Below are positions 10,591 to 63,155 of a stretch of 64,000 nucleotides of DNA, in pieces. Location of the stretch: NCBI GenBank assembly GCA_950106755.1, contig OX467086.1, positions 30,708,001 through 30,772,000 of the forward strand, read 5' to 3'. The notes beneath the pieces are model-generated. The model had not been told where the DNA came from, did no database searches, and was given only the letters and a program-made list of their open reading frames with translations. How positions within the stretch are numbered: the stretch's first letter is position 1; each line of letters begins with the position of its first letter. Source of the stretch: Climacium dendroides (Eukaryota > Streptophyta > Bryopsida > Hypnales > Climaciaceae). A program made the translations under genes and the position numbers.

Positions 10591-13482
10591 GCTCCCAGTA
10601 CATCGCTGGTGTTTCTATTCAACTGTTCAAAGTTGCCATAGCAAGTTCTTCACCAGTAAAGAACCAAGAAGCTCAAAGTGGGATTCATGTTTTTGTTAGA
10701 GTTTTGAGTAGGTCGTTTAAGGACTTTCTGTTGTCAAAATTTATTTATTTATTGACCAGCACATGCAATGCTCTTCACTGATTCTGTGAATACAAGTTTC
10801 GTCCCCACTTGAGTTTTATTTTTCACAATATGATCAATCAAATTGGTCATTTTAAAACGTCCTTTGGGGGTAAGCTTCGAAGGTTCAGTAAGGTGGAGTT
10901 AGTGTTTTATAAGTCTTCATGTTTTTCTCTTTCTTTGCAGTGTTCTATCGCAGCAATTCCTGGAGATATTTGGTGCAAGTTATCTTTTGCTGGGGGTGAT
11001 GATTTGTTTAGGTCAAGCTCTCCAGAATACCAAGAGGCATCCAGTACTTCCCTCACCTTGGCTGCACCTGTCACTCTTGTTGTGCTCATCGAAGTTTGTG
11101 TCAACGTGTTTAGGCAATTTCAATGATAGTTTAGGAGCATTTGAATCCAATCAGCAGATTTCAGCTCAAACTAGTACCGATTTGGTAAAAAATTTAAATT
11201 CCTTTTTGATGAGCGGTTGAATTTGCTTGCGTAGTTTTGAATTTTTGATCGCTTCGCTACATTCTTGCTACATCAGCTCAACTATATGATTTTCTCCTCA
11301 CTGGATGTGTTTGAACTTGAATCGTTCGCACATTGTATGGAATGTATTGCTTGAACCTGCGGGAGATTAGGGATGAAGTCTGGGCAGCATTGAAAAATAC
11401 TCTGAAGCCAGTCTTTGCAGTCGATTCTCTTGAAGTGGTTTTGTTTCAGGTGATCAATCTGTTTCTTCCAGTGTTATTTGGGATAACATTGAAAGTTCAG
11501 AGGTGCATTTGAAACTACGTGTCGTTTTCGTAATCGATTTCTCATGCTGGCCAGTAAAATTCATTTCAGCAGCGGAGCGACTGTTAGACGTTGCATTGCG
11601 GTGTAACACCGACAGATTATAGAAATATGTGAGACTCTTCATTCTTGACTGAGGATTTCGCCATCCAGTTTCATCTGACATTCAAGCCAAGCACGGACAA
11701 TCGAGCGCATGTGTTGGACCCTCGATATGAAATGCTAACCCAGACTTGGAACACATTAAATAAGAACTTTAGTGGACTTCTTATACCATGTTGATAGCCT
11801 CAAAATTTTAGGGTATCTTATCAAAATCTTCAATTACTAAATCATAGGTATGAATTGCATTTTTGGTCAGTTTCGAAGTGAAATGCCTCTAAAGCAATTT
11901 AACAAAGATTTCTGATCTTTCAAGTTCAAGTTCAACTGTATATTAGATAAATTCTGATCATCAAGCTTGTCATCGTCATTCACACATCAATGGTCATATG
12001 TTTAGCGAATGTCAGTTTCGTAAGCATTTAGAGGTTATGTTTCTTAATGATTCTGGCCACTTTTGAAGAGGAGCTTCGATGGCAAGATTCGCGAACATTA
12101 ATATGAAGTACTACTGTAGTTCAGTGTCTACGACCGCTACATGATATCACTGAAAGTGATGAGGGGTTGATATCCAGACTGTAGAATTCCGAAACAGGGA
12201 TTGGTTTGTCGGTGAGCACTATCCAGCGACCTGCGACAGGTTGAGAGCTAACAATATGGCCTTCTTTGCAACTGTAAGCTCACTGTCTTACTCCATTGCT
12301 TGGTTTAGATATAGTGGAACTCTGTATGCTGCTTGTTATATACACTGAATCTACATGTTATAAAGGGTCAGTAGACTTACGCCATAGCTTTGTCTGCAGT
12401 CCTTCCCATCGTTGGCAAAGGTTTGTGCATGTCTGAAAGCTGTTTGTTGTGAACATACAGGACGAGCTAGTTCATGAAACATACCAAAAGGAGCGGGAGC
12501 AGATGGGCCTTCGATCCTGACGGCCAGGTAAAGCCATTAACCTCTAAAGCACCAAGAACGCCCGAAATGGGCGTTACAAGTATTTTTTTGCTCCAGCTCT
12601 TTTTGAGTGGCTCGATCGTACTGTATGTAGACGACGTTATTCGTTAGATCGTAATTATTTTTCCTCAACACATGCAATGCTCTACATTGACTCTGGTGAT
12701 ATGAATTTAGTCCTGTCACACAATACGATCCATCAAATATGTCATTCAAAACTTTGAAATCTTCGTCGTGTTGCCTGGGGTTAACTGCGATAGACAACCT
12801 TTTGCTATGAAGATCTAGTTGAATCAAACCTAAGGTGCTTGTTCAGGGGATCTACAGTATTATGTTGTGTAAAGACATGTCTTTACCCACAAGTGACCAA
12901 GCTAAAATAGGAAGTCCACTTCGGAAGCTTATGGTCGATTGTACTCCCTCATTCCCCATCGTCATTGCAACATTCGTCATTGATTCTGGTGTTATATCAC
13001 TTGAACCCTCTTGAATTTACGCTTTCCACACTATGATCAATGAAATTGGTATCAAACGCCGGTTACGTTTCCAACACCACTGGAGACCCTACTTTTGGGA
13101 CAGAGGGAGAGTTACCTTTCGAAACACATTTGTATTGATAAAAAATGATGTCGTCCTTCGACTGGTATATATTGAATAACCTTCCTCAAAGCTTCTGAAA
13201 TGATCTGTTTCCATTGCTATTGATGATATGGATGCGTTCCGACTATTTGGGCAGGTCGGGGGCATGCAATTAACTGAATCCGAATTTCATCATTCTAGGG
13301 TTAGCTCTTGTTACTGTTTCTTGGCAAAGTTGATGCGTGTGCTTCTCCATTGATCTCACAAGATCTTGCTCATTGTTTTTTTGGAGTTTGTTCGCAGAAT
13401 TGAGAATTAAGTTCCATCCTTGAGTGGCAAACACTCTTTTCAGTTCATTAATTACATCTCGTGTGCATCGCCGGGAGGTCGG
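10591..13482 (+). pseudogene. Truncated pseudocopy of the DUF72 gene
   Basis: This stretch is collinear with 54912-57551 through exons and introns, so it is a genomic segmental duplicate and not a retrocopy. It starts within intron 3, lacking exons 1-3, and stops after exon 9, lacking exons 10-11. Recognisable exons are at about 10941 (AAIPGDIWCKL), 11373-11450 (DEVWAALKNTLKPVFAV), 11671-11726 (FHLTFKPSTDNRAHVL), 12179 (VEFRNRDWFVGEHYP) and 12461-12525 (DELVHETYQKEREQMGL). Lesions include an 18-base deletion removing the WCRRQL segment, loss of the GT donor after the DPRYEM exon, a 4-base insertion after QMGL that shifts the frame into a stop, and a degenerate exon 9. Confidence 0.9.
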
Positions 13483-19855: not shown

Positions 19856-19864
19856 GTGCAGTGT
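19856..19864. repeat. Left 9-bp target-site duplication (GTGCAGTGT)
   Basis: Identical to 34164-34172. It directly abuts the terminal inverted repeat and is exactly 9 bases long, the usual Mutator-superfamily length. Confidence 0.92.
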
Positions 19865-19930
19865 CAACGGTGCTAGAGTGTGAGTGGGGAGCAACAAGCG
19901 TTGAGCGTTGAGCAATGAGCAATTAGATTT
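19865..19930 (+). repeat. Left terminal inverted repeat with 7-bp tandem units
   Basis: Pairs with 34105-34163. After the outer 25 bases comes a run AGCAACA, AGCGTTG, AGCGTTG, AGCAATG, AGCAATT. Confidence 0.88.
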
Positions 19931-21024
19931 GAGCGCTCACTGTGAGGAATTTTACTAAAAATAGACATGTCAGAGTAATAAATAGGGTTGTCAGATCTAA
20001 ATATAGAAATGTCAGAAACCAAAAATAAAAAAATAAATCCAAGAAATTGAAATTTTTTTTATTGAAAATAATGAATTTTACATTCAAATGTTGCATGAAT
20101 GGGCATGAACAAAGACTAGCATTTCCCACAAATAGATGATTTTTCAACCATAGATTTGATGAATGAATGAGCTTCATTCATGTCATCCATTCATCATCCA
20201 TCCTCCCAAAATTTTCATTACATATTTGTAATATGTCTTAAAAAAATGAACTTTTTACCTTGTAAAAATAAAAATTTACAATTTTTTTGAAGTTTGCATT
20301 GTTGACTCTAAAACTTTGTTAACTAATTTGAGGTTGGTTGTGTTTTTTGTAATTAAGGTAGAAGCACCCATAACCGTCAAAATAAGGGGTTTGGGATATA
20401 TTGTTGATTAATAGACATTCAAAAAATTACTGAATTGTACTTAGAAGAAAAAAAAAATTTCAATGCATTTTTTAATTCATTTTTTGGACATTGTGAGAAT
20501 AAGTTCTGAATTTTTAAGAGAGCCAATTGTACGTTGACTTAAAACCACCACTTACGTCAAATTTTTAGATGAGGTACATTCCTGCAATTACATCTACCTA
20601 CTCCCCAAGATTTTCCAAGATGTAAGGAAGTGATGGTTATAGGTACAGTAACAGTTATGGGTGAGGCTACTTTAAGAAACTCTTAGAAGGTTTATTCAGA
20701 GATATGTAACAATGAGTTGTATAATGTTGTTTCATTATAATAAGTTCTCCTTAGAATGTAGTAGCACTTTCAAGATCCATTTGTAGAATTGTAACATTTC
20801 TTCCTGTAATGTTTTTTTGGCTAAATTTAGCCTTTTTAATGTATTTTTGTTATGTTTATGGTTTTACAAATCATTTCAGTTGTTTGTAAGCTGCTACAAA
20901 CTATTTCCACCTTAAACTAATTAGAATTTAGCATACGTGTCAATTTCTTCAATGGGCCATTCTATATCTACTTCTAAACAAAAGTAGTTTTCAACCTAGT
21001 ACTACAAGATGAATATACAACATC

Positions 21025-24000
21025 TTATAGATTGCTACCTACAAGAAGTAGCTTCACCTCATCAAAGCTCAAACTTGGTGCATGTATGTACTTATTGTCC
21101 TCAGAATTTGCCTTGCAAATGAACCTAAAGACATAATACAAATGCTTGCAGTTCACCCAAGATTTCCTACTACCAAGTGCAGCTGTACTCATGGTGATGA
21201 AGTCTTCGCAAGTACAAGCAGGAAAGTTTGAAATTGTGACTCGATAGACCTTCTGGTTGGGAAAGATGCCGAACAGTAGAGTTATCACTCTACCATAACC
21301 AGGATATGGAATAACAACTACGGATTGAACGATAGCTTTTAGGTTTCGTGTTGTCTCCCATTTGTTGCAGTGGTCAATTGTCGATGCATTAGGATTACGT
21401 CGTATGGTCCTATCCAATTGCTTTGTCGGATGCATATCACCATCAGATGGTTGCAAATTGCTATCTGGCTGTTTTGAGTGAAGGAAAGATATACCTCCAT
21501 CTGTACTCTCTTCATTAAAGAGATGGAGCATTGCTTTGTCTAGCTCCTCAGTTTGCAATTGAAATCCTGCTTCCTCTAGAGAAAGGATCTTTGATTTAGT
21601 GAGATGTGTTCCACATGCAATAGGCCACACATTTGGCAAAGGAGGCTAGTCGTGAACCCACTTGACCTTAGAGCCTCTTGCACAACGCATAAGGTCATCT
21701 GCACAAAACCAAAAATCAAAGTTGATGATGGCCTTGGTTCCATATTTTGTCATGCGGCCGTTGTAGGTAGGTGCTGCTGTTCCACTCTTACTTGACTTGT
21801 TTATCTTGGCCCCACATTTCTTCTTCATCCCAACTTGAACTCCATGACAAGTCTTTCCTTCCTTTTTGCATCTAGCAATGTGCCACAAAGTAGGGTTGCA
21901 ATTTGTTTCAAGTACCTTGGTAGCATGGGGACATAGTGTGCTTGGTTGTCCTTTCTCTATCAACATTGGTGTCGGCGTTGGCATTGATGCTCCTGATTCA
22001 GTGCGTGCTCTAGTTGACCGAGTCTAAACTTTGGGTGCAGAAAAGTTCACTGTATCATGGCGGTGAGAATCACTATCTAACCCAGGTGGTAGGTTTAGTT
22101 TGCGTTTTGAAGAACCAAATACTTCTTCCCCTTCCAAGTGGGGAACTCTTGTGGTGAATACACAAGCATTTGATAGTTTAGCAACAGCCTCAGCAAAGTT
22201 TGCTGGATTTCTGGTTCGTCTTGCAGCTCGTAGGCGAAGTTCATCTAAGTGGGGACCAGTTCCAGATGCATACCCTTGGAGGTATGCCCAATAATTAGTC
22301 GATTGTTGTATAGCCCGCATCATGTCATCAGTAGTGGCGACGTACAAGCATGTTCCCCTCTTCCCAGACATTTGCAATCATTTGTTGTGAACTGTCTCAG
22401 CCAAGTTGCATGAAGGCATTTCGGCCAGTTCTTCTAAGTTCAAGTTCTGTACCAATAACAACAATTTAAAGAAACAATATAAGACTTTGTTGATTCTGAA
22501 AGTGTCATTTAAGTACTAAGAATTTTATATATTCAAATTTAATTTGTAAGAATTCAGTAGATGTGAATGAAAACAATTAAATAGAAACCACATATACATT
22601 TAGGACAGAAAAACAACTACTCTACAATTAGAAGTTGAACAATTAAATAGAAAAATTGAAATGGAAGGAGGCATGTATCTTACCAACTCTAAGAATCCAC
22701 CCCATTGTCAATATCGGAAGTGCCAGAAACCCAACCAATCATCCAGTTGTCGAAGAGAATCCTCTGATGCAGCCCTTGAACAAAGCCACCAGCCCTTAAT
22801 TCCAAGGTATCTTTCTTCTGCTTCCGCCATTGTCTTTGCATCCTTGTATTGTTTGCAAAGCTTTTTGTGAGTCTCTTGGAATTCAAGTCGAATGAGTTTT
22901 TCTATATGTCTGTTTAGTGAAGTTGTCCAATGAAGTAGACAAGAGCGCTCTCGATCTTGCATGGGCTCTTGCTTGTTGCCACTTCCATATACCACCCGAA
23001 TAGCATGCCAATTTGCCATCGCATTGTCAGCCATAAAACCCTTGAATTGTGGAGAAGAAACCCCGTGACGCGCCATGACTGAGTTAAGGGATCTCCACAT
23101 CTGTTCTTGGCTCACAGCATCCTCGCTCATCATGTCACAAACACAAATAGTTTGAACCCGACAGAATTCAGGGTCATATACGTGGGTAGCCATTGACGTT
23201 CATCCTTTCACCTTCTTTACATGATCAAACATGCACCAAGAATTTTGCAAGTCTCCCCCCGGTTGCATTCGCCTTACCAAATCCACTCCACTTCCCGGGC
23301 CTTCCTTAGACATCTTAAAAAGGTAAACTTTATCTTTATCTTGGCCTGGAAATACACTATCTTGAATAAATGAATAAGTACTCTTCATTTTCAATGAGAT
23401 AATGTTGTCAATGGGTCCTCCACTTGCACTATGACGGAAATTAGAGATGGTATTCTGAATACTCGGTGAACTGAGTATTCGAAATTTATCCATGACTGCC
23501 TCAAGTGCCTCTCCGCGAAGTGGCTTTCAGTCACCTTGTAGTCCTTCCTCTCCAAGCTCCTCTCCAAACAATTCAGATGCAAGGAATTCCTTGCTAGCAG
23601 CAAGTCGTATGGCCGAATTTGTTGCTGTAGGCGTTCTTGATACCTCTTCACCAATCAAGGATGTTGTTCGATCAACAGAATCACGACAGATGCCTCTACC
23701 CACAGGATGATCATGAATTCCAACGTAGATACAAGCTCTGGGAAGGCCTAAAGAATTCAAGACCCTATACATGCGACAAGGGCATAAGGCTTTGTAGAAA
23801 GGAACTTCTTTGCATATTCGACATACAAGAGTGGACTTTGATGGAAACTGCTCTCCTACAAGGAAGACGGTAGGTGACGATCCCTCCCATTCTGTCTCAT
23901 TTTTGCTGCCACTTCGGCGTAGTCTAGGGCAGGCTTTGTTCTCGCAAACTAGGTGGCCCACACACAAGGAGTAGCGGAACTTCAGGCCAAAGTCGTTTGC

Positions 24001-24679
24001 GATGTTTGTAGTGTGTGTGTGTCCAATTATAGCCATCAAATTTACGATCCATGCCTTGTAGTTGCTGACCTACAGAAGATGAGGAAGTTGAATTGGGTCG
24101 ACTTCCAGAAGGAGATGTCGAAGAAAGAAGAGGAGGTAATTCAAAAAGAATGTCTCCATTGAATGATTGAGGAAGATGTCGTACCGATTCACAACGAATT
24201 GTACTGAGGTTTAAGAACTTCAATTCATTTCGTGCACGCGGACGACTTTGCATATTTTTAAGGCATTCTAAGACGCTCACAAATTTGGATGCCCTTTGCT
24301 GAATTGAAGGATGCAACATGCTATCATGTTGAATGTTGTCCATACTTTGAATAGTGTCTGTACACCTTTTGAATATGCTAGGTAGCTTGCGACTTGCATC
24401 AATGAAAATAGTAGCATCATCGTCGGAAGACTCTGTAAGATCAATATGGCTATGACTGGAAGACTCTACTTTCACACGAGTTCCCCAAGACATTTGAACA
24501 GTAGCAGACCCAGGTGTATGTATTTCAGTTGACATTGATCTAGTGAACCTAGGAGTGCCAAAAGCATGATACTTGCCTAGAGAAAGCCTCCAGCCATTTC
24601 CGGAGTCTATTTTGATCTTGAATAGCATGATTGTAGATGTGACTTGAAGTCCCTGAGAATCAAATAGCTCTTCTTCCAC
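21025..24679 (-). pseudogene. MULE transposase with SWIM zinc finger, broken
   Basis: Domains in order: a Ser-rich, acidic N-terminus with HIDLTESSDDD; a zinc-binding module (LVCENKACPRL, TLVCRICKEVP, LCPCRMYRV, GIHDHPVGRGICRDSVD); a DDE core with FDHVKK, CVCDMMSED, KGFMADNAMANW, the CLLHW motif of MULEs and the glutamate block CNLAETVHNK; then a Cys/His stretch (HIARCKKEGKTCHGVQ) and a SWIM finger (FPACTCEDF...WVNCKHLYYVF). An intron lies between the donor at about 22685 and the acceptor at about 22440. The product would cut and join the element's ends. Breaks: a frameshift in an AC-repeat near 24009-24022 and in-frame stops at 23527, 23200, 22378 (TGA where the family has Trp), 22024 and 21646. 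The SWIM/DDE assignment is firm, the exact family less so. Confidence 0.87.
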
Positions 24680-25368
24680 CTATAGAGACGACAACTCTAA
24701 ATTGAAGCGTACACTGAGAATTAAAGCAGATACCCATGCACTACCGCCATCGCTACAAGGAAAAGAAATTGGAATGCTGGACTTGTCACCACGAACAAGT
24801 GCCATGTCCATATTGGAATGTGTATACAATCTACAAATTCCTATAGACTGTCATTGCTTACATGGAACTATTGGTAGGATCCCCAAAGTATCTAGCGAGA
24901 ATAGGTAAAAGACAAAGAGGTAGTGGACATGGATATGACCTTTTTCATGTAGGATTTTGGTAATTTGAAATTTGAAATTTGAATTGAAGGCTCCATATTT
25001 AAAGATTTAATACACGGCTAGCAATTGAATTTTTTAAATTTAGTTACCAGTACCTGATCTTTGGAATAATGAATTGTACATAGCGCCACTTTCACATTGA
25101 AGGGTAATTAGAAGGCCCTAAATGGGGGCCTCTTCCAATGTAGTGGTGGTATATTCAAATGTGAGAGTGATTATGAAGCAGTTGAGTGAAGAACGGATGA
25201 TCTTATTGACCGTTTATATCCTGGTCAGTAGATGTTTTATTTGGAGAAGTTATAATGAATTGGATGAGAATACATTCATTAGACTTGAAGAGTGCTATAT
25301 ATTGAAGAGATTGCGGTATTGTTAGTGAGAAAGTCGAGTTCTCTTCCCTGAATTTTTTGGTTAGAGGG
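24680..25368. promoter_or_regulatory. Divergent promoter region of the MULE genes
   Basis: 690 bases separate the two head-to-head start codons and must contain both promoters. I see no unambiguous TATA box. The segment is AT-rich with a TTTGAAATTTGAAATTTGAA run near 24963. Confidence 0.5.
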
Positions 25369-26240
25369 ATGCCGAAGGGTTCTTATAGAAAGAGACGTAA
25401 GGCAGGACTTCGCTTCTCTAGCAAGAAACAGCTAGAAAAATCGAAGATGTTTAGGCGCTTACAAAAATCTAATGATGGTGAGATTAGTAGCATTGTTCGG
25501 ACCTTGTTGTATGAGGATGATGGGATTGAAGATGCACCTTTTGAACACAAGTTTATTTTGATACAAAATAGTGAAGGAATGGATATTGCCAAGCTTGACA
25601 CTATTGATGAAATTGAAGTGGACGTATGCCAACCGAGTGTGCTAGAGAAGAACATGTCCCTAGTGATCAGCGCAGAGTTGGTAAGTTTATGTATTCATTG
25701 GTAGGACTGGAACCATTAGACTATGAGGAGTTGATTGTATGTGTTGAATATTTTTTGTTAGAGGTGAATTTGATACCAAACCTCATTTTGTGTATTTCGA
25801 GAAGACGATTCCAATGGTATATAGCACGCAAAAAATGGAGCATTTTTGAATGTTCTACAGCCTAAAAACTAATTCAGCATCTTGGAATCTTCTCTGAAAT
25901 CTTCAGAATCGGCTGATTTTTCAGCTAAATCTTGCCCAAATATTTTTAGAAGACTTTGCCGATTTTTGTAAAATTCCTCGTAACTTCAAAAAATTTGGAA
26001 AAAATTGGGGTTACTTTTGAGGTTATAATCTATGTGCTCCAAAAATTTGGACCAGAAATGTATGAAATCGCAGATTTTATTAGAAAGATTCCCTTGGCCT
26101 AAATCTACCAATCTCTTCCTTATTTTTTTCTTATTTTTTTTTGAAACCAAAGAGCAACTCCATGGGCTGATCTTCGGCTTGCTTTGGTGTAGTTCTCTTC
26201 CTTCTCCATTGTTGTGTTTTGGCTTAGGGTTACTTCCACA

Positions 26241-26453
26241 ATGAACTTACGGAGTGGCATGCTGCGCAAGGATGGAGAGGCGCGCGGCGACGGTGGGGAG
26301 GCGAGCAGCGACGGTGGGGAGGGTGTCTCCAACACCATCGAAGGCGGCGATGCGATGGAAGTTCAAGTTCCTAAAAACCCTGAAGAGGTGCCACTTCTAA
26401 ACACCTCTTTTTCAAGTTGTAAACTTGACCTTGTTGACGAGGTCACTTTTTAG
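26241..26453 (+). other. GC-rich short ORF in the first intron of the methyltransferase-like gene
   Basis: A frame starting MNLRSGMLRKDGEARGDGGE lies in a locally GC-rich patch with Gly/Asp/Glu repeats, just before the minisatellite; its end runs into the first repeat unit. It might be an alternative first exon, but no good donor was found (GTGCCA only). Not called as a gene. Confidence 0.3.
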
Positions 26454-28285
26454 GGATTTAAGAGATCACTCCAAAGGTTCCGGTTTAGGACTTATGATTT
26501 TCAGAAGATTGCAATTTCAGGGTTTCGAACTTGACCTCGTTAACGAGGTCACATTCTATGGTTCTTCACAGTCTTACTAAAACAATTTCTAATTTTGATA
26601 CATAAATTCAAATTCTTTCTACGAGTTGCTGAATTAGATTGCAAAATGTGACCTCGTCAACGAGGTCTCTTTTCCGAGATTTCTGAAATCACTAAGAGAA
26701 TTTCAGTTTAGGATTCAGATTTTACTTTCTCTCATAAGGTTTGATGAATTAGATTGCAAAATGTGACCTCGTCAACGAGGTCACTTTTCCGAGATTTCGG
26801 AAATTACTAAAACAATTTCAGTTTAGGGTTAAGATTTTGCTTTTTCGTGTAAGGTTTAGGGAATTAGATTGCAAAATGTGACCTCATCAACGAGGTCACT
26901 TTTTCGAGATTTCGGAAATTACTAAAACAATTTCAGTTTAGGACTAAGATTTTGCTTTTTCTCGTAAAGTTTAGGGAATTAGATTGCAAAAGGTGACCTC
27001 GTCAACAAGGTCACTTTTCCGAGATTTCGGAAATTACTATGACAATTTCAGTTTAGGAGTTAGAATTTTTTTTTTCTCGTAAAGTTTAGGGAATTAGATT
27101 GCAAAATGTGACCTCGTCAACGAGGTCACTTTTTCAAGATTTCGGAAATTACTATGACAATTTCAGTTTAGGAGTTAGAATTTGTTTTTTCTCGTAAAGT
27201 TTAGGGAATTAGATTGCAAAAGGTGACCTCGTCAACGAGGTCACGTTTCCGAGATTTCGGAAATTACTATGACAATTTCAGTTTAGGAGTTAGAATTTGT
27301 TTTTTCTCGTAAAGTTTAGGGAATTAGATTGCAAAATGTGACCTCATCAACGAGGTCACTTTTCCAAGGTTTCTGAAATTACTATGACAATTTCAGTTTA
27401 GGAGTTAGAATTTGTTTTTTCTCGTAAAGTTTAGGGAATTAGATTGCAAAATGTGACCTCGTCAATGAGGTCGCTTTTCCGAGATTTCGGAAATTACTAT
27501 GACAATTTCAGTTTAGGAGTTAGAATTTGTTTTTTCTCGTAAAGTTTAGGGAATTAGATTGCAAAATGTGACCTCGTCAACGAGGTCACTTTTCCAAGGT
27601 TTCTGAAATTACTAAGACAATTTCAGTTTAGGAGTTAGAATTCGTTTTTTCTCGTAAGGTTTAGGGAATTAGATTGCAAAATGTGACCTCGTCAACGAGG
27701 TCACTTTTCCAAGGTTCAGAGAGGTGACAAAGTTAGTTTAATTTTCATTTTAGGCTTCTGTTTTCTCTAAGAGACTGCTGAAATGGATTGCAAAATGTGA
27801 TTTCGTTAACGAGGTCACTTTTCTAAGAGTTTAGAGAGATGATAAAGACATTTCAGTTCTAATTTTTAGGTTCATTTTTCGCTAAAAGACTGCTGAAATG
27901 GATTGCAAAATGTGACCTCGTCAACGAGGTCTCTTTTTCAAGGTTTATAGAGATTACTAAGAGAATTCAGTTTTCACTTTAGGCTTCATTTCTTTGCCTT
28001 CTCACTACTAAAATACATTGAGAAAAGTGACCTCGTTGATGAGGCTTCTTTCTTCGGATTTATTAGGGATCACTTACATGGTTCAGTTTTCACTCTAGCC
28101 TTCATTGTTTTTTCTTTACACTATTGAAATACGTTGGCAAAACAGCCCTCGTTAACGAGGTCACTTCTGCCAATGTATTCTAAACACTCACTTAGAGAAT
28201 CTAAACTTTAGTCTGAGGTTCAAAATGTATTTTTCCAATGCTTGCTTTGAGCTGAAAATGTAACCTCGATAATACGATCACTACT
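26425..28285. repeat. 115-bp minisatellite with palindromic core, about 17 units
   Basis: The core GTGACCTCGT-CA-ACGAGGTCAC recurs at 26425, 26531, 26648, 26763, 26878, 26993, 27108, 27223, 27338, 27453, 27568, 27683, 27797, 27912, 28027, 28143 and about 28259. Spacing is exactly 115 bases over the central ten units; outer units are more diverged. A second small palindrome, CCGAGATTTCGG, follows each central core. The array lies in the intron between exons 1 and 2 of the ParB/methyltransferase-like gene. Confidence 0.95.
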
Positions 28286-30135
28286 TAGGCTGATTTTTAA
28301 TAAAGATGTAAAAAATACTTATTCTTGTTTTTTCAAAACAGAGCTTTATAGATATTGATGGAGGGCTTCCACAAATCCAGCGCTTGGAGCTAGTCACCAA
28401 TGATGATTCGCAGCTTGTGGTTGGCAATCTTCAGATTACATGTGTTTCTATTTATGTTTGTATGATAAATTCTATGATTGATTTTGTATTACAGTTGTTG
28501 TCGTATTTGTTTTCATTTCCATGCCTTTTAATATTAATTATAACTTCGGTTCAATTTTCTATTGATTGTAGGTTGACAGCACTGTTGATATTCAAAATGC
28601 TGATCAAGTTTTTGAAAGGCGAACGGTAGATGAGGTGGAAGAGGATGTGTGAAATGGTCTAAAATTGGATTCCAATGCAGTCATCAACAGCATGCTCTTC
28701 AATGGTGGTGGTTCTGGATCTCGATTTGATATTCCTTTGTGCAGGATGATTGGGCTTCCATTGGTCCGTCCTCTCTTCCAAAGTCAAGTGAAACGATTGG
28801 AGGCTGAGTTTGTTCATGGATATCGACAAGGTGATCATGTACTTTACGTGTCAACAACAAATGACAAAGGAGCTTCCAAGTTAGTGACGCCTGAGATTGT
28901 AGAGACATGGGATGAACACTAGATACACGAGAATGACCAATTTGAGTGTTGGTTGAGTTCTCAATCAACCATCTCACACTTGTCAAATCACATGTTTTTC
29001 GTATGGGATGGCAATCACAAATTGGCGGCTTGGTATGCTTACAACCACAGAATGCATCGTCATAACTGCAAGTGGCATTTGCCTGTTGATTATATGTTAT
29101 TGGTGTCTGAAGGCCGTACATGCATTCTATTGGAGGCTATGAATGATATCAATTGGTGAGTTCTAATGTTGGTTGAATCAATGTTTATTTTATTTTATTG
29201 CTTCTTCAATTGTATTGTAACATTCATTCATCTTACATTCTATTTTCATTGATATTTGCAAGTCTATAGAGCACTCCCATGTCAAGAGCAACTTGGTTCA
29301 ACAATTGCACAGAATGAATACCTATGGCAACTTGCAATTGGAAGAGTCCAAGGGGCTTCTAAGTGATGAAGATTACAAGAAATGTGAGGCGAGAAAGCTA
29401 CCAGGTGCTTGGTATCCATTGACATCTCCCGGCTTTATACAATTCCTTTATCGGGTGAGTATCTTTTGTTTGTAGTACTTTTTCATTCAATTGTTGTGAT
29501 TTGTAAAATTCATTTTATACTGATTTCAAGTTTATGTTTTTCATGTGCAGCAAGAAATTGCTACTGTTTCAAATGTAACTATGCGAACTTACTATGAGAA
29601 GACACGGTTGGAAAAACGAACTCCAAAGGGTGTTCATGAGGTCATGACTCAAGCTGCCACTGCAGCTATTAAAGGATTTCGAACGGAGTTTGATAAACAA
29701 TCCGCCATTGCAAATCCAAAAAACAGCGTTGGATTTCTAGAAGAGGTATATTATTATGCCTACTTGCTTTTTTATTTATATGATTATTTTTGGACTTGAT
29801 TTTTACTATACTTATGTCTTTTCAAATTTCAGATTAACTTGCATTACAACGCCAACGAGAAGCCCGAGATGTCCTTGGAGAAACTTCAAAGGATTTCTAC
29901 ATGCCAAGTTCAACCAAACCACAAGGTTCGTTGGCTTAGGTGGTGGAATTCAAGTGAGACTTCTAGGGAGGGTTTCAGATTCCCTGCCCTCGGTTTCAAC
30001 ACAATGACTTTAGAGACTTGGCTCTGTAAGGCCTCATTTTGGGCTGAGGTATGTAATTAATTTTCTTTTTCATTCATATGAAAAAAAATTACATTTTACA
30101 AGTTTATAAATATTTTGATTTTTATCTTATAGTTG

Positions 30136-30443
30136 TACCATACCAAAGTCTGGTAAGAAGGAAATGCAGTCAAAATTCATTGCGGTTCTTTTCTCCACAA
30201 TGTTATACATGCTGTTAACTACAACTGCAGCCTTCTTTTTCAATTTTTGAATTCAATTTCTGGAATTTCATAGCATGTAATATCTTTCCAATGGTATATT
30301 ACATGCTATGAAATTCCAAAAATTCAATTCAGAAATTGAAAAAGAAGGCTATAGCTGTAGTTAACAGCATGTACAACACTGTGGAGAAAAGAACCGCAAT
30401 GAATTTTGACTGTGTTTCCTTCTTACCACACTTCGCTATAGTG
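30136..30443. mobile_element. Foldback MITE nested in an intron of the methyltransferase-like gene
   Basis: About 308 bases, two arms of ~150. The right terminus reversed reads CACTATAGCGAAGTGTGGTAAG; the left is diverged from it but clearly paired. Arms share AGTCAAAATTCATTGCGGTT and CATGCTGTTAACTAC. Its centre, CTTTCCAATGGTATATTACA, is shared with 32058-32388. Confidence 0.85.
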
Positions 30444-32057
30444 GTGTATTATAGTACCATGATATGCTTTGCCTTCATAATGTCTTGGTACTTATATTTT
30501 TGAATTTTCTTGTAGTTGGAGGAGGTAGCCAAAACAGAATTCACAAGCATCATCAAGTCTGAGAATATTGTAGTTCAATGGAATGCCAATGATGAGTTGG
30601 ATTCCATTGGGGATTATGTGGAGACATGGCGCATTGTGTTGTGGGATCATGCTTTTTGGTGGTTGTTCAAGAAGGGTTCTTCGTATTCAAGATCTACTCC
30701 TTTCAAAGACCAAGAAGGCACAGATGTGGCTACAAGGAGGATTCTATACAGGTATATCTTTTATTTTAGTTGCCTTTAGTTTTCTAAATTTTAATTGTTT
30801 TGCAAAATCATCAAAATGCATGTGCATTTTTTTCATTGTGATAATCACACACATTCTATGATTGCAGATATTTCAAGCGAGAGTTCATTCTAAAAGGTGG
30901 AATGGAACGAAAGTTCATGCCCAAGTTGTTTAGAGGATGGCTTGATACTTCCTTGAAGGGTTGTATGTTCACTTTGACTCAACAGCGAGGATTTTCTGTT
31001 CAAGAGCTCCAAACGTGTCCTTGGTATTTAGAGTGTCCAAGAGTTTTTGCCCCAGCATTTGAAGCATCTGAGAAGGAGGCTGCCAAAGACCATTCCAAGG
31101 CAGGTTTACAGGAGGAGTCTCTTGATGAAGAGGAGGTTCAAGAAGTTCCACCAGTGAAGAAGGGGCGTAAGCCAAAGGAGAAGAAGGCTACAAAGAAGAC
31201 AACAAAAGAGACAGCCACGAAAGAAGACACCCCTTCTTCATTTATTCCAGCTTCTGTTTGTGTACCTCCTCCTTCTTTTGTGCCTCCTACCACTTTGGAA
31301 GTCATTGATACGGCTCGGTCTCATTGCCCTGCAACTCTCATGTCTATTACAGCAGATGCCTTTGCTTCATCAGAGTACATTGCTAGATCCGCAATTCAAC
31401 CTGACAAATACGGTATTGAGCCTCAGGCTTTAATTCTACCATCATCGATTTCTGCAATGCTCAATGTTAAAGAGAAGACGGGGGATAATGCATCAATATG
31501 GAATCAAATGCTTGATTTTGCCCAAAAGGTAAGGTCTACGTTCTCTAGCCTTGTTATGATTAATTTCTTTCATTTCACATTAAGTTATTAGCATGACATT
31601 GCAATTCATTCATACATCTAACTTATAGTGTGCATTTTTTTATTGTCAAGATTGGTAGGGACCGGGTGCGAACTCTTGGAGGCTCCGTGAGCCCTATTGT
31701 ATGCTTTGACTTGATTGTTACCAATATCCCAGATGGACTACCGATCCCCAATGTCTCCATTCCACCTTCTAATATTCCTTCTTGGAACGTGTTGAATCAA
31801 GAAGAGGTTATTGAACCTATCTTTGAATTTGCTTCGGAGTTTATTCATGATGATGGAGCAATTTTGTTGTTCCATCCAGAGAATAGCAAGATAAAGGAAT
31901 TTACCCTTGAGCGTGCCGATACGTATGGTTTTCGTTTACTTGACTCTTGGTAGGGTGTCAATGAGATGAAGCTTTCGAGTTTCAAAAAAAAAAACGTTGG
32001 GTGAGTTTCACTAAATTTTTTCTCATTTGTAGTTTTTGATGTTTTGAACAACTTCTA

Positions 32058-32388
32058 CACTATATCAAAATGTGGTAAAAAGAACCGCAGTCAAAATTCT
32101 ATGCAGTTTTTTTCCCCACAGTGCTGTACATGCTGTTGACTATTGCTGCAACCTTTTTTTTTCATTTTCTAACTCAGTTTTTGGAATTTGAAGGCATGTA
32201 ATATACCATTGGAAAGGTATTTTAAATACCTTTCCAATGGTATATTACATGCCTTCAAATTCCAAAAACTGAGTTAGAAAATGAAAAAAAAAGGTTGCAG
32301 CAATAGTCAACAGCATGTACAGCACTGTGGGGAAAAAAACTGCATAGAATTTTGACTGCGGTTCTTTTTACCACATTTTGATATAGTG
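32058..32388. mobile_element. Second copy of the same foldback MITE family
   Basis: 331 bases with near-perfect TIRs CACTATATCAAAATGTGG. Flanks are CTA and ATA, a possible mutated 3-bp duplication. The internal sequence matches the copy at 30136-30443 (AACCGCAGTCAAAATTC, ACATGCTGTT), showing one family. It lies in the intron between exons 9 and 10. Confidence 0.88.
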
Positions 32389-33024
32389 ATAGTAAAATTG
32401 TATTTGGCAAATACTAATTGTCATACTTGTTTATTCCTTGCAGTCACAGCGCTTTCGGATCCTCTTATTTGTACGAAAACAATGGGAGGAAACATCGGTG
32501 GAATCCAAATTTTCTATCACTATAAACCAACAACTTAGTGATGCAGGTACAAACCTTGAAGAAGTTGACCTTCTCCACAACTATACCTCCTTGCAAACTC
32601 AACTCATGAATGGTACAATTCCGTGGAGAGGTGCCCGTGAGAAAGACCCTCTATTTGTACAGCTACTAATCGAGGCATCTTCAAAACCTGGTGATGTGGT
32701 ATTGGATTGTTTGCATCTACAGGTACCTTTCATTAGTCATTACTTTTTATTATTGAAACCATATAATTTTTGCATTGTATGTAACATATTTGGTGCAACT
32801 AATGACATTGCATTCAATAAACAGGGGCCTCTATCCATGCATGCCGCAACATTGGACGTCATTTGGTGGCCTTGGAGAGCGATAGTGAGATTTTTGAAGG
32901 TCTTCTTCAACCTTTGATCATCCTTCCTACTTCTACTGCCACCGTCCAAACTAAGCGGCCTTTGCCTATAGTGTTGGATGATTCTGATAACGATGACATT
33001 GTCAAGCTTTCTACAAGGCCTTGA

Positions 33025-34104
33025 AAAAAATGTTGTTGTAAGTAAGTTTGTTGATGCTTTTAAGCATGTGTTTATTTTCTTTTATTATGCAATATCTTTT
33101 AATTTATTCAAAGTTTCTAATTATTTAATCATTGCATCTTGTAAAGGCAATCTTCTCAAGCATTTGGTGCTCTCGCCTTTTCTTAGTCCAAAGAGTTTGC
33201 CATGTTACATCGAGACTCTAGCGACATCTATGGCAGAGGCTCCATCACCCATTTCTATTGCCAAACATCGTTCATACAATATTACTGTCAAGAAGTTTTT
33301 AGACCTTGAAGCAGATGTTGAGACACCAAGGCTTACATATAGTGATAGTAGTGAAGCCAGTGATAATTCTTCTCCCATATGTGGCATTGGGTCAAATTGA
33401 TTTTGCTCTAAAGACTATTGTTGTTACTTGATTTTCTAATGTCATGTAGTGAGACTAAAAGGGCCACTACATTCTTGCACTTTACCATATTTTTAAGTTA
33501 TTTTGCATTTTGGTGATCTTTAAAGTGGTAGTGAAAAGGGCATCTATTTCAAGAGATAATGGTTACTATTGTCAATTAGTAGAATTTTTTTTGGATTGAA
33601 TTTATTTCTTTTTATTAGCAACATGGTACTTCTCTTTGATGAAAACATGTAATTAGAAATAGTAAATGTTGGTGTTAGCATAAAAATAAATTTGGTGAAC
33701 TTCACAAATGCTTGAAAAGAATTGTGAATTTTAATTAAAAATGGTATCTTCACCCTAAAATGGTTTTAGAATACCATATAAGCCTAAACCCTTAGCTTAA
33801 AAAAATCCACTTAAACCTTGGATTTAAAATACTTGATAAGTGACATTTATCTAAGACAAATGATTTTATAGTTCAAATCATTGATTAATCATCCAAACTC
33901 ATTTTCATCCAATGTCATGAACAAATGTATTTCATTCAATAAAGTCAACTAAAAAATAATTCATCCAACTTTGTTCATCTCCATTCATCTCTATTCATCC
34001 TCTTTGAGTGCATCTATAGTTTTATGCTTTTATAATAAACCATAGACCAAAAATCCTTGTGGTGAAAAATTATAGGTTTTCCACAAATTTTTCAAAAAAT
34101 TCTC
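33025..34104. other. Right subterminal region of the MULE
   Basis: Downstream of the stop at 33022-33024 a frame at about 33187-33400 (ending SDNSSPICGIGSN, Ser/Asp-rich) could be an alternative last exon. The rest is AT-rich, with no other gene up to the TIR. Confidence 0.45.
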
Positions 34105-34163
34105 AGTGCTCAACACTCATTGCTCAACGCTCATTGCTCCCTGCTCATACTTTAGCAACCCTG
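34105..34163 (-). repeat. Right terminal inverted repeat with 7-bp tandem units
   Basis: Reverse complement of the left TIR pattern: on the minus strand AGCAATG, AGCGTTG, AGCAATG, AGTGTTG, AGCACTG. Confidence 0.88.
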
Positions 34164-34172
34164 GTGCAGTGT
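34164..34172. repeat. Right 9-bp target-site duplication (GTGCAGTGT)
   Basis: Perfect copy of 19856-19864, abutting the right end of the MULE; the bases on either side differ, so the match is exactly nine bases. Confidence 0.92.
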
Positions 34173-35394
34173 TAATAAGTTGAGATTCAAGTGACACTGA
34201 AAGTGGACTATGTTGAGCTCATTAGAAGCTGTAAGGTGTTATTTGAGTCATGATATGAATTTTAATATTTTTAAAGTAGTAAAAAAATGACATCATTTGA
34301 AATAGCTTCAAGATGATGCCTTTTCACTACCATGACAAGCAACTATAAAGAGAAGGGTTCACTTGAGAGCTTCATTATATTGATATTATTATTATTATTT
34401 TTTATTTAAATTATACTAATTGAATTGTAGGGATTTTTTTGAGTCATAAGATGAAGAATCTCAACTAGAGCATAAATTTGAATTTTCTTCATTGCAACTG
34501 TTGGATCAACTTCAACTACTACTAAATCTTTCATTATTGCATTGGCAATCACAAGATGAAGTTGAGCCATCTTGACCACCGAAATAATCTCACATGGAGC
34601 AATGATGGCACAAAAATCTTCAACATGATACTCGGGCATTGGTGATTTTGTTGTAAGTTGGATGCGTTGAACCCAATAACCGTGAAGTAACATTTAAAAG
34701 ATGTTTTGAAGGATTAAACGACAATAAATATTATTACATGGTCAAGCCTATCGAAGGGAGTCATGGTCACCAATGATGATTTAACTGAGGCAAATTGTGT
34801 AGATTATGTCATTACTACCATCAAACGCATCCTCGAGTTTTTGCAGATGGAATGATATTCGAATAAAATCTTTTTTTTAATCTCTATTAGACATTTATTA
34901 ATTTTTTTAATTCTTTATTCCATACTTGGAGTATTTTTCTAAATTAGTTTTGTGTGTTGTGCAAACCCAGAATCCAGAGACGGATCAAGGTTGAGGGAGC
35001 TAGGTGAGAAAAATAGAGAAAAAATTAAAAAAAATTATAGTTAGAACGTGATTTTTGTGTGAGAAAACCCAAACTAGAAAATAGGCATTCCGGCAAAATC
35101 CGTAACTGGAACTTACCCGGATCCGGAATCCGGAATTACCCGGAACGCAGAAACCTATCGTATAGACCCCGAAGCTATGGGAATAGGATACCATTAGTAT
35201 AACGGACTTGTAGCCGTTATCATGATTACCGTAGGAAGACGGTTTAGTATTTAAGTTGTTTGCCGAGGGTTTTCATCTCCACCTTCCTGTTTTGTTTTTC
35301 TGAGACTATCCATGTGAGTAGTTGAGAGAAAGAGTGGTGAGTTAGCGACTGAATTAGGGTTATTTTTTTCTCCTCTCGTTTCTACTTAGGCCTT
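34173..35394. other. Spacer, then 5' part of a TE-like unit
   Basis: 34173-34950 is AT-rich without a gene. From about 34970 composition changes, with GGATCCGG/CCGGAA-type motifs, and the DNA looks like the leader of the ORF that starts at 35395. I could not find a matching LTR or TIR downstream. Confidence 0.45.
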
Positions 35395-37344
35395 ATGGCA
35401 TCAGGAGCGGTACGAAAGGTAGTTGTATCTACCCGGATTATCTCTCCGACTATTCTAGACAATCCGGAACTACACAAGCAGTTAGAGGAGGATTTAACCA
35501 AGTTAGGGGGTGTCAATTTGTTACATCGACTATGGAACCTTAAGAGTGAGGATATGATCCAGGAACTACTCCATGGAGTTCCGAATCAGTATGAGCTCAC
35601 TTTGAGAGGACGGCCAGTCACGTGGACGGAGGACATTTGGGCGGATGTGTATCAGTTCCGGAAGAGCGGAAACGGGTTAGTGTTGAGGACGGACCATTTT
35701 GTAGCCGGGAAGTTCACAAGGTCTGCAAACCCTAAGGACGGATTCGCTATTAGCGAATGCAAGGACGAGAGACATAGGCGAATTCTAGAGTTCTTCATCC
35801 CCATCCTGTACCCGAAAAAACCTATATGGGTCACCATTACGGTGGCCAATACTATTTTCGGGGCTATGAAGAACCGAGCCGTGTACTGGGGTAGAGCCAT
35901 AGCCGGGTTAGTTTCTAAATTAGTAGAGCATGTAACCCGCGCAAAGGCAAGTCCAGTTAGCACCTACCTATTTCATTTATACCACCAGCAGGAACTTTTG
36001 AGCGCTGCAGAAATAATCCAGTACGACACCAGAAAGGCTATTCTGTCATACGGACTTTCTGGGGAAGAAGTGGAAGATCCGGTCGAGTCGGAACCGGAAG
36101 AGCACCCCGAGGAACCTCTAACCTATCCAAGGAACAAGAAGAGGAAGTCAACAGATCCGGGGTCACGAGCCAAACCACCAGTGATGGAGAGGGGGGAGTC
36201 AAGTCAAGGACCGGAAGTAAAATCCGAATCAGCATTTTTCAGTGCTGGGTTCGAATGGATACGCGAGGCTAAGGTGCTCCACGACAGTTTGGCAAATCTG
36301 GTGATAGACACGGCGGAAGTTTTGAAGATAGAACCGAATCAGATTGTGGAAGCAGTCAAACGACTGCCGAAACCGGAAGACCTAAAGTAGAGGGAGGACC
36401 GAATTCAGGAGTTGGAAGCGGATCAGAATCAACTCCAAGCCCGACTAAATTGGACGGAAGGGGAGATGGAAGCTTCAAAGGAGAAAGAGAAAGAGGCCCT
36501 TTCTCTTGTCAAAAACCTATCCGAAGCAATCGACATCAAGGCCGACGTCATCACGAAAGCGACTTTGTTTGATTCGAAGATGATACAGGAGGGCCACATC
36601 ACTGGGACCAAGATAGTGACCATCCTCGTAGACTTCACTGCAAGGATAGAGCGGGTTTTAGGAAAGCTACGGCAGCTACTGACGGCCATCAATCCGAATC
36701 AGGTGATGGATTTCTCAACCTTTCCGGAACTCCTTTTTGTCTCAGGTACTCTAGGGAGACTAGTAGTGGATCGAGCAGCTCGAATGGAGGGACTGAGAGG
36801 GATACTCACGCCAGCTGAGCCTACTTCCAGTAAGATACTAATGACAGAGTTAAATTTGAGGCCAGCTTCCATACCGGAACATGAGTCTAGTGTGAAATCG
36901 GTTCCGGTACCATCCAAAGTCTCAACTCCGGAAATTCCCAGGGCGCAAACGGTACCCAACCTTTTGAGGGGATCGTTCAAAGTTTCAGGACAGTAGGTTA
37001 GAGGAGATCTCATCAACCGGATCGGTGGAATGACCAATCTGGCCCGGATGAATTCGGAAGGGTTCTCACATATGCAAGAGACTACACCAGAAAAGAAAAG
37101 CGAACCCACAATATTGGAGGAGACACCGCCAGAGAAGGAGAAGGAAGTTCAAGTTGTTGAAGATTCCGAAGAAGAAAGTGCGCATTCCACTTCCGGAACG
37201 GAAGAGGATAGCGATCTATCTCCCGCAGCGCGCCACATCCAGACTCGAGTAGCAACGAAAACGACTCCAGCCAGAAGCGTGAAGGGAACGCCAACCAGTC
37301 AAGTAGGCAACCGCTTAAAGAAGGGTCAAAGGCCAAAGCATTAG
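35395..37344 (+). pseudogene. TE-type long ORF interrupted by two in-frame TAG codons
   Basis: Three consecutive segments share one reading frame: 35395-36390 (331 aa), 36391-36996 and 36997-37344, separated only by TAG at 36388 and TAG near 36994. Part 1 has LTLRGRPVTWTEDIWADVY, reminiscent of the domain in plant retrotransposon-associated ORFs (a low-confidence comparison), then an acidic/basic linker with NKKRKS, a likely nuclear signal. Part 2 starts with a coiled coil (RIQELEADQNQLQARL). Part 3 is acidic (EDSEEESAHS, TEEDSDL) with a basic end. No protease, reverse transcriptase or integrase is seen. It could be a decayed gag-like or host-derived gene; function unknown. Confidence 0.6.
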
Positions 37345-62584: not shown

Positions 62585-63016
62585 CTAGTAGTTGATGGCG
62601 ATGGTGGCGTACAAGTTGTTGCCGTCTTCTTTGTAGTACTTAACGGTGATGCGGGCGCCCTTGCTGGTGTGCTTCTCCAGTTCCCCGGTCTGCTTCGGCG
62701 GCACACTGCTGTGGTTGCCCCCGCCGTAGTATTGAGGATGGATCTCCACGGCCGTGTTGCTGGCGCTCAGGTCGGGCAAGATGTCGCACCAGCGTTTGTG
62801 GTTGTGAACGCCCAAGGCCACCAGGAAGTACTCGCCCTGAGGGTTCTTGAAGCGCAGCGTGCCGGACGTGCCGCTGCCGCCCATGCTCAGCGTCTGCTCG
62901 CCATCGCACTCCGCCCAAGTGCCGCCTTGGGCGAAGTGCCACACCGTCTTCTCCACAATGCTGAACCACTTAGCGGGCTCGTTCTGGATCACTCGCACGC
63001 GGATGGTGTAAGACAT
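62585..63016 (-). CDS. Fungal fruit body lectin family protein
   Basis: A single-exon gene for 143 residues, full length for the FB_lectin (Agaricus bisporus lectin-like) family. Hallmarks are YTIRVRVIQ at the N-terminus, MGGSGTSG at 45-52, GVHNHKRWCDI at 69-79 and EIHPQYYGGG at 91-100. Family members are cytosolic homo-oligomeric lectins that bind Gal-beta-1,3-GalNAc and, at a second site, GlcNAc-ended glycans; a defence role against invertebrates or fungi is often suggested. There is no signal peptide. The family is mainly fungal, with copies in bryophytes, probably by horizontal transfer. Coding GC is far above the flanks. The ATG at 63016 fits the family's start exactly. Confidence 0.95.
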   Translation of the reverse strand: MSYTIRVRVIQNEPAKWFSIVEKTVWHFAQGGTWAECDGEQTLSMGGSGTSGTLRFKNPQGEYFLVALGVHNHKRWCDILPDLSASNTAVEIHPQYYGGGNHSSVPPKQTGELEKHTSKGARITVKYYKEDGNNLYATIAINY

Positions 63017-63155
63017 GCTGAAGGCAGGGACTTCGGGAAGTGAGGGCTAGTGAATCGTGAGTGACGGAAGGACGCGCAATGTGTGGAATAATGGAAGCAC
63101 GTTGAGATCGAAGTGAAATGGATTGAGAGTGTGTTGGAATGGGAAGGAGACTCGG

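Follow-up and report, generated by a model that had tools for sequence, protein, structure and literature searches.

A Mutator-like transposon family of the moss Climacium dendroides encodes a protein with ParB-like and methylase-like domains beside an intronic palindrome array

The DNA analysed here (the window) is a stretch of 64,000 nucleotides from the moss Climacium dendroides (contig OX467086.1, positions 30,708,001 to 30,772,000). It contains a transposon of about 14 kb, spanning positions 19865-34163 and exceeding the stretch first noted (25369..33024). The left terminal inverted repeat (19865..19930, plus strand) starts with CAACGGTGCTAGAG; this left end is common, to within one base, to nine other close copies. 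The right one (34098..34163, minus strand) ends with CAACCCTG and is an inverted match to the left. Directly outside lie the two target-site duplications, GTGCAGTGT, identical over 9 bp (19856..19864 and 34164..34172). According to our reading of a genome search, the element is present at at least 35 loci. The order of its two genes is common to ten copies, the one in the window and nine that were fetched. Terminal inverted repeats are present in nine of the ten (49-93 bp aligned, 76-85% alike); the right end of copy D was searched for and not found. Target-site duplications of 9-10 bp are exact in eight of the nine copies with both ends and carry one mismatch in the remaining one. In the Mutator-like (MULE) superfamily such duplications measure approximately 8-11 bp. 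The carriage by a transposon proposed in an earlier note is thus borne out by inverted ends, target duplications and the number of loci.

One gene of the element lies on the minus strand (21023..24679), divergent from the other. It is a broken transposase-like gene, delimited from open reading frames and read-through, and bears near its end a CxC...CxH stretch, placed by eye, which we take to be SWIM-like. The gene also occurs in copy F (93-97%) and copy J (48-73%). No Pfam match was obtained with the window pieces or with copy F, so that the MULE transposase named earlier is unconfirmed as such; its only supports are the SWIM-like pattern, the inverted ends and the target duplications of 9-10 bp.

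The plus-strand gene runs from ATG at 25369 to TGA at 33022-33024 in eleven exon-like blocks, which confirms the coordinates first given. Most of the blocks have GT...AG borders; the donor after 28434 is degenerate. Exon 1 (25369..25680) encodes a basic N-terminus beginning MPKGSYRKRRKAG, ends at a gtaagt donor and is present in all ten close copies. The exon model and comparison with copies define exon 2 (28342..28434), exons 4 to 7 (29263..29454, 29551..29745, 29833..30048 and 30516..30751) and exon 8 (30868..31528), which codes for a middle part rich in Lys and Glu. Exon 3 (28572..29156), supported by its relatives and by predicted fold, encodes the ParB/sulfiredoxin-fold domain, which reads DGNHK where most relatives read DGNHR. 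Exon 9 (31651..32000, its end near 32000 taken from comparison with copy F) contains the presumed methylase motif IV (NIPDG). Exon 10 (32444..32722) holds methylase motif X and the start of motif I, and exon 11 (32824..33024) the remainder of motif I, motif II, the C-terminus and the stop; both follow from copies and a Pfam match. Two homologous foldback insertions interrupt the introns. That in intron 6 (30137..30443) has inverted arms of 147 nt, 90% complementary, and is common to copy F but not detected in J or K; that in intron 9 (32058..32388) has 165-nt arms, 100% complementary.

The window copy is a pseudogene: exon 3 contains a TGA and a TAG, exon 9 a TAG (31951-31953) and a frameshift in an A-run, and one base is missing near the end of exon 10, before motif I. 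Decay accounts in part for NIPDG and GNHK in this copy, as most relatives have DIPDG or DIPNG, and GNHR. We read the window element as a defunct member of an old transposon family that is Mutator-like and carries two genes. Between it and copy F we counted 843 transitions and 612 transversions, a count that includes overlapping array alignments and carries no weight as evidence here. The encoded protein has approximately 1,100 residues: the basic N-terminus is followed by a ParB/sulfiredoxin fold and then, beyond a long middle of about 500 residues, by a permuted amino-methyltransferase fold. Values of dN/dS for this protein are 0.12-0.29 (F-J), 0.21-0.40 (F-K) and 0.21-0.44 (J-K), those for the methylase exons 0.29, 0.38 and 0.39, respectively. 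The protein, methylase exons included, is under purifying selection. Eight fetched copies with internal deletions do not qualify as sources of a ParB gene under selection, each having stops in 3-7 of seven exons tested. No helix-turn-helix was identified, and the region between the domains had no match in Pfam, points that count against the binding proposed below; Carot_N and similar weak Pfam matches of the protein were taken as chance. When the full-length protein was compared with 5.8 billion proteins, 0 of 7990 scored candidates reached E<=0.001, and exon-sized queries did find relatives.

A query with exon 3 retrieved 65 relatives among 125 candidates, with E down to 6.8e-91. The predicted fold of this domain is that of ParB/sulfiredoxin, in agreement with the ParB-type assignment made earlier. 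F-x-x-D-G-N-H-R is nearly invariant among 49 aligned relatives, and the conserved arginine of the GxHR/GNHR motif is R in 43 of the 48 rows with a residue there, K in the window copy. In sulfiredoxin a catalytic Cys immediately precedes His-Arg; the corresponding position is Asn in 49/49 rows. Among 31 members, PF02195 (ParBc) was not matched even with E allowed to reach 1; the weak Pfam matches there were DUF1015 (5), DUF6551 (2) and CB_ParB_C (2), the best at E 0.058. There was no ParB match in PHROGs or NCBIfam, none of the exon profile to PDB sequences and none in Foldseek with the predicted fold at E<=0.001; in viral contigs, 49 pattern matches yielded 0 confirmed members.

The permuted N6/N4-type methylase domain is supported by profile matches. 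PF01555 (N6_N4_Mtase) is found in full-length copy F with E=3.6e-9 (37.3 bits), over the cut-off of 26.7 bits, and in the window copy with E=5.2e-5 (23.7 bits), under it; a PHROG annotated as DNA methyltransferase matches with E=9.5e-7. The PF01555 match is collinear (profile positions 32-217 of 221) and starts downstream of DIPDG, whose assignment as motif IV was made by eye from pattern and position, outside the Pfam match. A search of the genome with PF01555 alone returned 0 matches, possibly because the exons are short. Active enzymes have (D/N/S)PP(Y/F/W) as motif IV and FxGxG as motif I. Judged by eye, motif IV is DIPDG or DIPNG in F, J, P0001 and P0004, with the aromatic residue gone, and motif I is FxSxG in F and J; in the window copy, K and P0002/P0003 the catalytic motifs are changed further. 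Of the DNA-modification module proposed earlier, the methylase-type domain stands, and modification itself is weakened. Because both catalytic motifs depart from the active consensus, it is at least as likely that the domain binds or reads DNA as that it methylates. That both domains are present and that their carrier is a transposon we regard as nearly certain.

Intron 1 harbours an array of 16 palindromes, TGACCTCGTYRACGAGGTCA (26427..28162, plus strand), defined by spacing and conservation, with related arrays in the other copies examined; the earlier note had overlooked it. The spacing is 106, 117 and then approximately 115 bp; all 16 units are in register and none is missing. By chance, 0.02 such palindromes are expected in the window. 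In the six most diverged window units the palindrome is 72-100% identical to a reference unit and the flanks 46-64%, and over 122 units from ten copies conservation averages 0.90 in the palindrome columns and 0.75 and 0.69 in the flanking 20 bp; units for both counts were picked by their match to the palindrome (up to 3 and 6 mismatches), a procedure biased in its favour. The exact palindrome occurs at 163 sites in the 412.6 Mb genome, its reversed control at 0. Among the matches listed (50 of the 163 exact sites), every one falls into one of nine arrays, each belonging to a copy of the element; the nine close copies were likewise found via the palindrome. Copies differ in their number of units. 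The array is situated in the middle of the element, with about 6.6 kb between it and the left end and 6 kb on the right. The idea that the element marks its own ends is unsupported: the site that is repeated and conserved belongs to intron 1, away from them.

Divergent copies were chosen by protein similarity, and related arrays were present upstream of exon 2 in 5/5, the set being five of six divergent loci noted, with C38:17.63 Mb left out. Their period is approximately 115 bp (TRF 105-117) and their core resembles CCTCGTYAACGAGG. A single unit type is common to J, N and O, and the five therefore represent three lineages besides that of the window. When the window copy is paired with N or with K, the best 18-mer shared by the two arrays falls on the palindrome and outscores every one of 60 shuffles; for M and K it overlaps the palindrome and again beats all 60. 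For the window copy and M it lies at the palindrome without significance (12 of 60). In the pairs M-N (7 of 60) and N-K (24 of 60) it is off the palindrome or merely at its edge. Pairwise comparison of single decayed arrays thus gives a mixed outcome across lineages. Between F and K the palindrome agrees at 18/20 positions, modestly above background only, because the aligned introns (78-83% alike, gapped) are no less alike than the array flanks (71-76%).

A ParB-methylase gene beside regular, near-identical palindromes hints at a self-recognition system undescribed for such elements. The reading we prefer is that the protein binds the array of its own element and controls or protects that element, as VANC proteins do but from unrelated parts. 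We give it about even odds (0.5), a figure that covers binding and control jointly; the alternatives below are not mutually exclusive with it. Binding of the palindromes by the ParB-methylase protein, taken by itself and judged from sequence, is somewhat the better bet, although the transposase or a host factor could be the binder instead. That the purpose is anti-silencing is a more tentative proposal, drawn by analogy; the array makes the evasion of silencing suggested in the earlier note more plausible. A dimer of the protein would recognise each palindrome. Sites approximately 115 bp, near 11 helical turns, apart would place the bound dimers on one face of the DNA, where they could assemble into a single large complex. 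NTP binding by the ParB fold may permit spreading from the array. The complex would adjoin the divergent starts of both genes and keep the element expressible against host silencing, its action being restricted to array-carrying DNA, with the methylase domain serving in DNA binding or reading instead of methylation. A more specific version, in which a phage- or plasmid-type ParB-methylase was co-opted by a eukaryotic transposon, with parS-like loading on the array, NTP-gated clamp spreading and a methylase-derived reader blocking silencing, is rather doubtful in its entirety.

The palindromes might instead be transposase-binding or internal cis sites for transposition, a role played by subterminal repeats in other elements, with the ParB-methylase protein serving another role. 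The eight internally deleted copies retain array and left end although both genes are ruined, as this would predict. Such retention is not specific, because dead exons are retained too, and array-less deleted copies would be missed, because the deleted copies were found via the array. The array is moreover mid-element, not subterminal, and we consider this alternative unlikely. Equally unlikely is that a host factor binds the array and that the array thereby controls expression of the element, whether as a bidirectional promoter, an enhancer or a splicing element. Its place in the first intron, close to where the two divergent genes start, would suit such a role, yet a site for a host factor should also turn up in other parts of the genome, and all 50 listed exact sites, out of 163, are within the element. 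Less probable still is that the protein is active as an amino-methyltransferase and marks the element by methylating adenine or cytosine within the array or close by. This reading has in its favour the PF01555 score of copy F, the purifying selection on the methylase exons and the similar fusions in phages (PMC12704722) and the ParB-methylase of Bacillus cereus (PMC5512222). Against it stand the changes from DPPY to DIPDG/DIPNG, with loss of the motif IV aromatic residue, and from FxGxG to FxSxG (by eye) in readable copies and relatives. A chance minisatellite without function is very improbable: introns commonly contain tandem arrays, unit number differs among copies and unit comparisons across lineages in part lack significance, but the palindrome is conserved where flanks diverge, and place, approximate period and kind of palindrome recur in five divergent copies of three lineages.

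Parts of the preferred reading, in which the protein binds and serves its own element, have counterparts in known systems. MuDR (Mutator) is likewise of Mutator type and has two genes, the second of which, mudrB, is its own; the likeness is one of description only, and to our knowledge mudrB is not a ParB or methylase protein. According to PMC5735166 and PMC10398659, VANC proteins of Arabidopsis VANDAL elements remove silencing and bind short motifs that are repeated in tandem in non-coding sequence. Repeats of this kind also occur in introns of VANC21 itself; the motifs vary between related families, as here. In both systems a transposon encodes an extra protein besides a transposase or transposase-like protein, and short motifs stand in tandem in non-coding sequence, introns of the extra gene included, protein binding being a prediction in the moss. 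VANC has DUF1985/DUF287, whereas the whole joined ParB-methylase protein gave no such Pfam match at E up to 1; the moss element has instead a ParB and a methylase fold, a 20-bp palindrome and a period near 115 bp, and would be anti-silencing by analogy. Phage and prophage ParB-N6_N4_Mtase fusions (PMC12704722) and the Bacillus cereus protein (PMC5512222) unite the same two kinds of domain, but are prokaryotic, whereas the moss gene has introns, approximately 500 residues between the domains and apparently altered catalytic motifs. Neither "plant" nor "transpos" occurs in the main text of PMC12704722, and sulfiredoxin is given there as the commonest eukaryotic representative. Plasmid F, according to PMC6238139, also encodes a ParB-family protein beside a tandem palindrome array, parS-F, where ParB binds 16-bp inverted repeats. 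Its units measure 43 bp as against 115 bp in the moss element, its ParB is canonical and it has a ParA partner; no ParA was found among the subset of element ORFs scanned with Pfam. An earlier description of a transposon carrying a ParB-methylase did not surface in the literature searched, partly with searches aimed at neighbouring topics.

It is an open question by what means transposons evade silencing while doing their host little harm, and VANC/VANDAL is the sequence-specific anti-silencing case that surfaced in the literature searched. If our reading is true, a ParB fold, an altered methylase and a palindrome array would make a second such system, and the strategy would have evolved more than once. 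The protein has a predicted target site and is directly testable in vitro. The eukaryotic ParB fold would be extended beyond sulfiredoxin, possibly as a DNA-binding module with a 20-bp site. Should the more specific version hold, a ParB/parS-like clamp system would operate in a plant nucleus, and VANC-type anti-silencing would have a second, independent origin.

The palindrome repeated in intron 1 of the plus-strand ParB-methylase gene (array at window 26427-28162) served as the pattern in a search of the 412.6-Mb assembly, in which the window occupies C34:30708001-30772000, and 20 kb were fetched around each of nine arrays (copies A-I). All nine belong to the same element, with plus-gene exons on one flank and the transposase-like minus gene on the other. 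Ends of the fetched copies agree to within 1-2 bases with window positions 19865 and 34163, the limits of the window copy (W). With shared end bases set aside, exact target duplications of 9-10 bp border eight of the nine two-ended copies (W, A, B, C, E, F, G, H, I), that of copy A containing one mismatch; the right end of copy D was sought and not found. A protein search of the genome, in which 42 of 3187 candidates were scored, gave at least 122 matches, read as at least 35 loci.

Two copies are full-length, W (14,299 bp) and F (13,740 bp). In the others (A, B, C, D, E, G, H, I) exons 7-9 and the core of the transposase are missing, and in each of them 3 to 7 of the 7 exons tested contain stops. 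The arrays of these copies have a gap of 874-919 bp between palindromes 3 and 4, a stretch that regular units occupy in W and F. Both full-length copies harbor one foldback insertion each in introns 6 and 9, homologous and about 74% alike; in the window these lie at 30137-30443 and 32058-32388, the latter with 165-nt arms that are 100% complementary. Five deleted copies (B, D, G, H, I) were inspected at the deletion junction. Their intron there consists of the start of intron 6, one foldback and the end of intron 9, with an additional stretch in copy G. Given the similarity of the two foldbacks, exons 7-9 were probably lost by recombination between them.

The exons of the earlier note were borne out: 11 blocks from 25369 to 33024 join in frame with mostly GT-AG borders. 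In W, exon 3 contains two stops and exon 9 one, an A-run is frameshifted and a single base is lost upstream of motif I; its plus gene is a pseudogene. Pairwise dN/dS between subfamilies, calculated without J exon 3 and K exon 11, is 0.12-0.29 (F-J), 0.21-0.40 (F-K) and 0.21-0.44 (J-K), in all cases below 1 although the divergent copies J and K are dead. The ParB exon family (relatives P0005-P0069) is abundant in the protein sets searched, one cluster having 101 member sequences.

The same note had read the C-terminus as amino-methyltransferase-like. As to fold, this stands: copy F scores 37.3 bits against PF01555 (cut-off 26.7; E=3.6e-9), with a match that spans profile positions 32-217 of 221, and W reaches 23.7 bits, below the cut-off. 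PHROG matches of the region are DNA methyltransferases, as are the weak PDB sequence matches (DpnA, E=0.006; MboIIA, 0.036; CcrM, 0.22), and comparison with a profile of six phage methylases aligned 65 columns at motifs X-I-II (Prob 95.7, E=8.8e-9), motif IV lying outside this alignment. The canonical forms are (D/N/S)PP(Y/F/W) for motif IV and FxGxG for motif I. The presumed motif IV, placed by eye upstream of the PF01555 match, is DIPDG in F, J and P0001; P0004 has DIPNG, W has NIPDG and K has DISNG. Motif I is DCFASTGASIHA in copy F, and P0002 and P0003 have Asn in place of Phe. The fold is thus still that of a methylase, with an active site that is probably altered.

The window contains 16 palindrome sites at up to 3 mismatches (0.02 expected), all in register in W and with no unit missing from first to last. 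Among the six units that have diverged most (u0, u1, u12-u15), identity to a reference unit is 72-100% for the palindrome and 46-64% for the flanks. Across 122 units of ten copies the mean is 0.90 at palindrome columns versus 0.75 and 0.69 in the 20-bp flanks, a comparison biased towards the palindrome, by which the units were picked. The exact palindrome occurs at 163 sites genome-wide (reversed control, 0), and the 50 listed all fall inside the nine element arrays. Because close copies had been found by palindrome, five of six noted divergent loci (J, K, M, N, O) were chosen by protein similarity (exon 3, 55-79% where aligned). All five carry an array upstream of exon 2 with a period of about 115 bp (TRF 105-117) and core-like sites at up to 3 of 14 mismatches (J 6, K 8, M 9, N 7, O 7). 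Exon 1 upstream of the array is clear in M, N and O and weak in K; it was not found in J. J, N and O share a unit type and are thus not independent. The arms vary by lineage: TGACCTCGT in W, TGACCTCRT in K, CCGCCTCGT in J, N and O, and TGGCCTCAT in M. Statistical support from comparisons of single decayed arrays is mixed.

Directly right of the element, two successive plus-strand ORFs (345 and 201 aa; 35353-36996) gave no family above chance in a Pfam scan. An apparently intact minus-strand ORF at 62585-63046 encodes a fungal fruit body lectin (PF07367, FB_lectin; E=5.8e-48), a family that occurs in bryophytes; together with the presence of introns, this gene suggests that the DNA comes from a bryophyte. 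A diverged direct repeat (10591-13479 and 54909-57549; about 2.8 kb, in pieces that are 66-84% alike) may stem from a duplicated gene or a further element, and an inverted pair (3385-4019 and 51156-51796) is 67% alike over about 650 bp.

Phages are already known to encode fusions of ParB with N6N4 methylases, and ATP was bound by ParB domains that are joined to bacterial SAM-dependent methyltransferases (PMC12704722); an earlier study cited in PMC5512222 reports nicking by a B. cereus ParB-methylase. Among the papers listed by literature searches, mostly of texts free of subscription, none described a ParB-methylase protein in a eukaryotic transposon.

Since a ParB-fold gene adjoins a repeated palindrome that lies in its own element at every listed site, it is most simply inferred, with a probability of about 0.6, that the protein binds the intron-1 palindromes. 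The 115-bp period approximates 11 helical turns (115.5 bp), a spacing at which the sites would be in phase. There are two precedents. PMC5735166 and PMC10398659 describe VANC of VANDAL elements, which binds tandem motifs in non-coding DNA, some of them within introns of the VANC gene itself, and removes the silencing of these elements; the arrangement of tandem motifs, here too in an intron of an extra gene, is alike. The ParB of plasmid F binds inverted repeats of 16 bp that lie within tandem units (PMC6238139), again a ParB-type protein with tandem palindromes. On these precedents we propose self-recognition: the chances are roughly even that the protein would bind the array and control the element bearing it, and, more tentatively, the likeliest form of such control would be anti-silencing.
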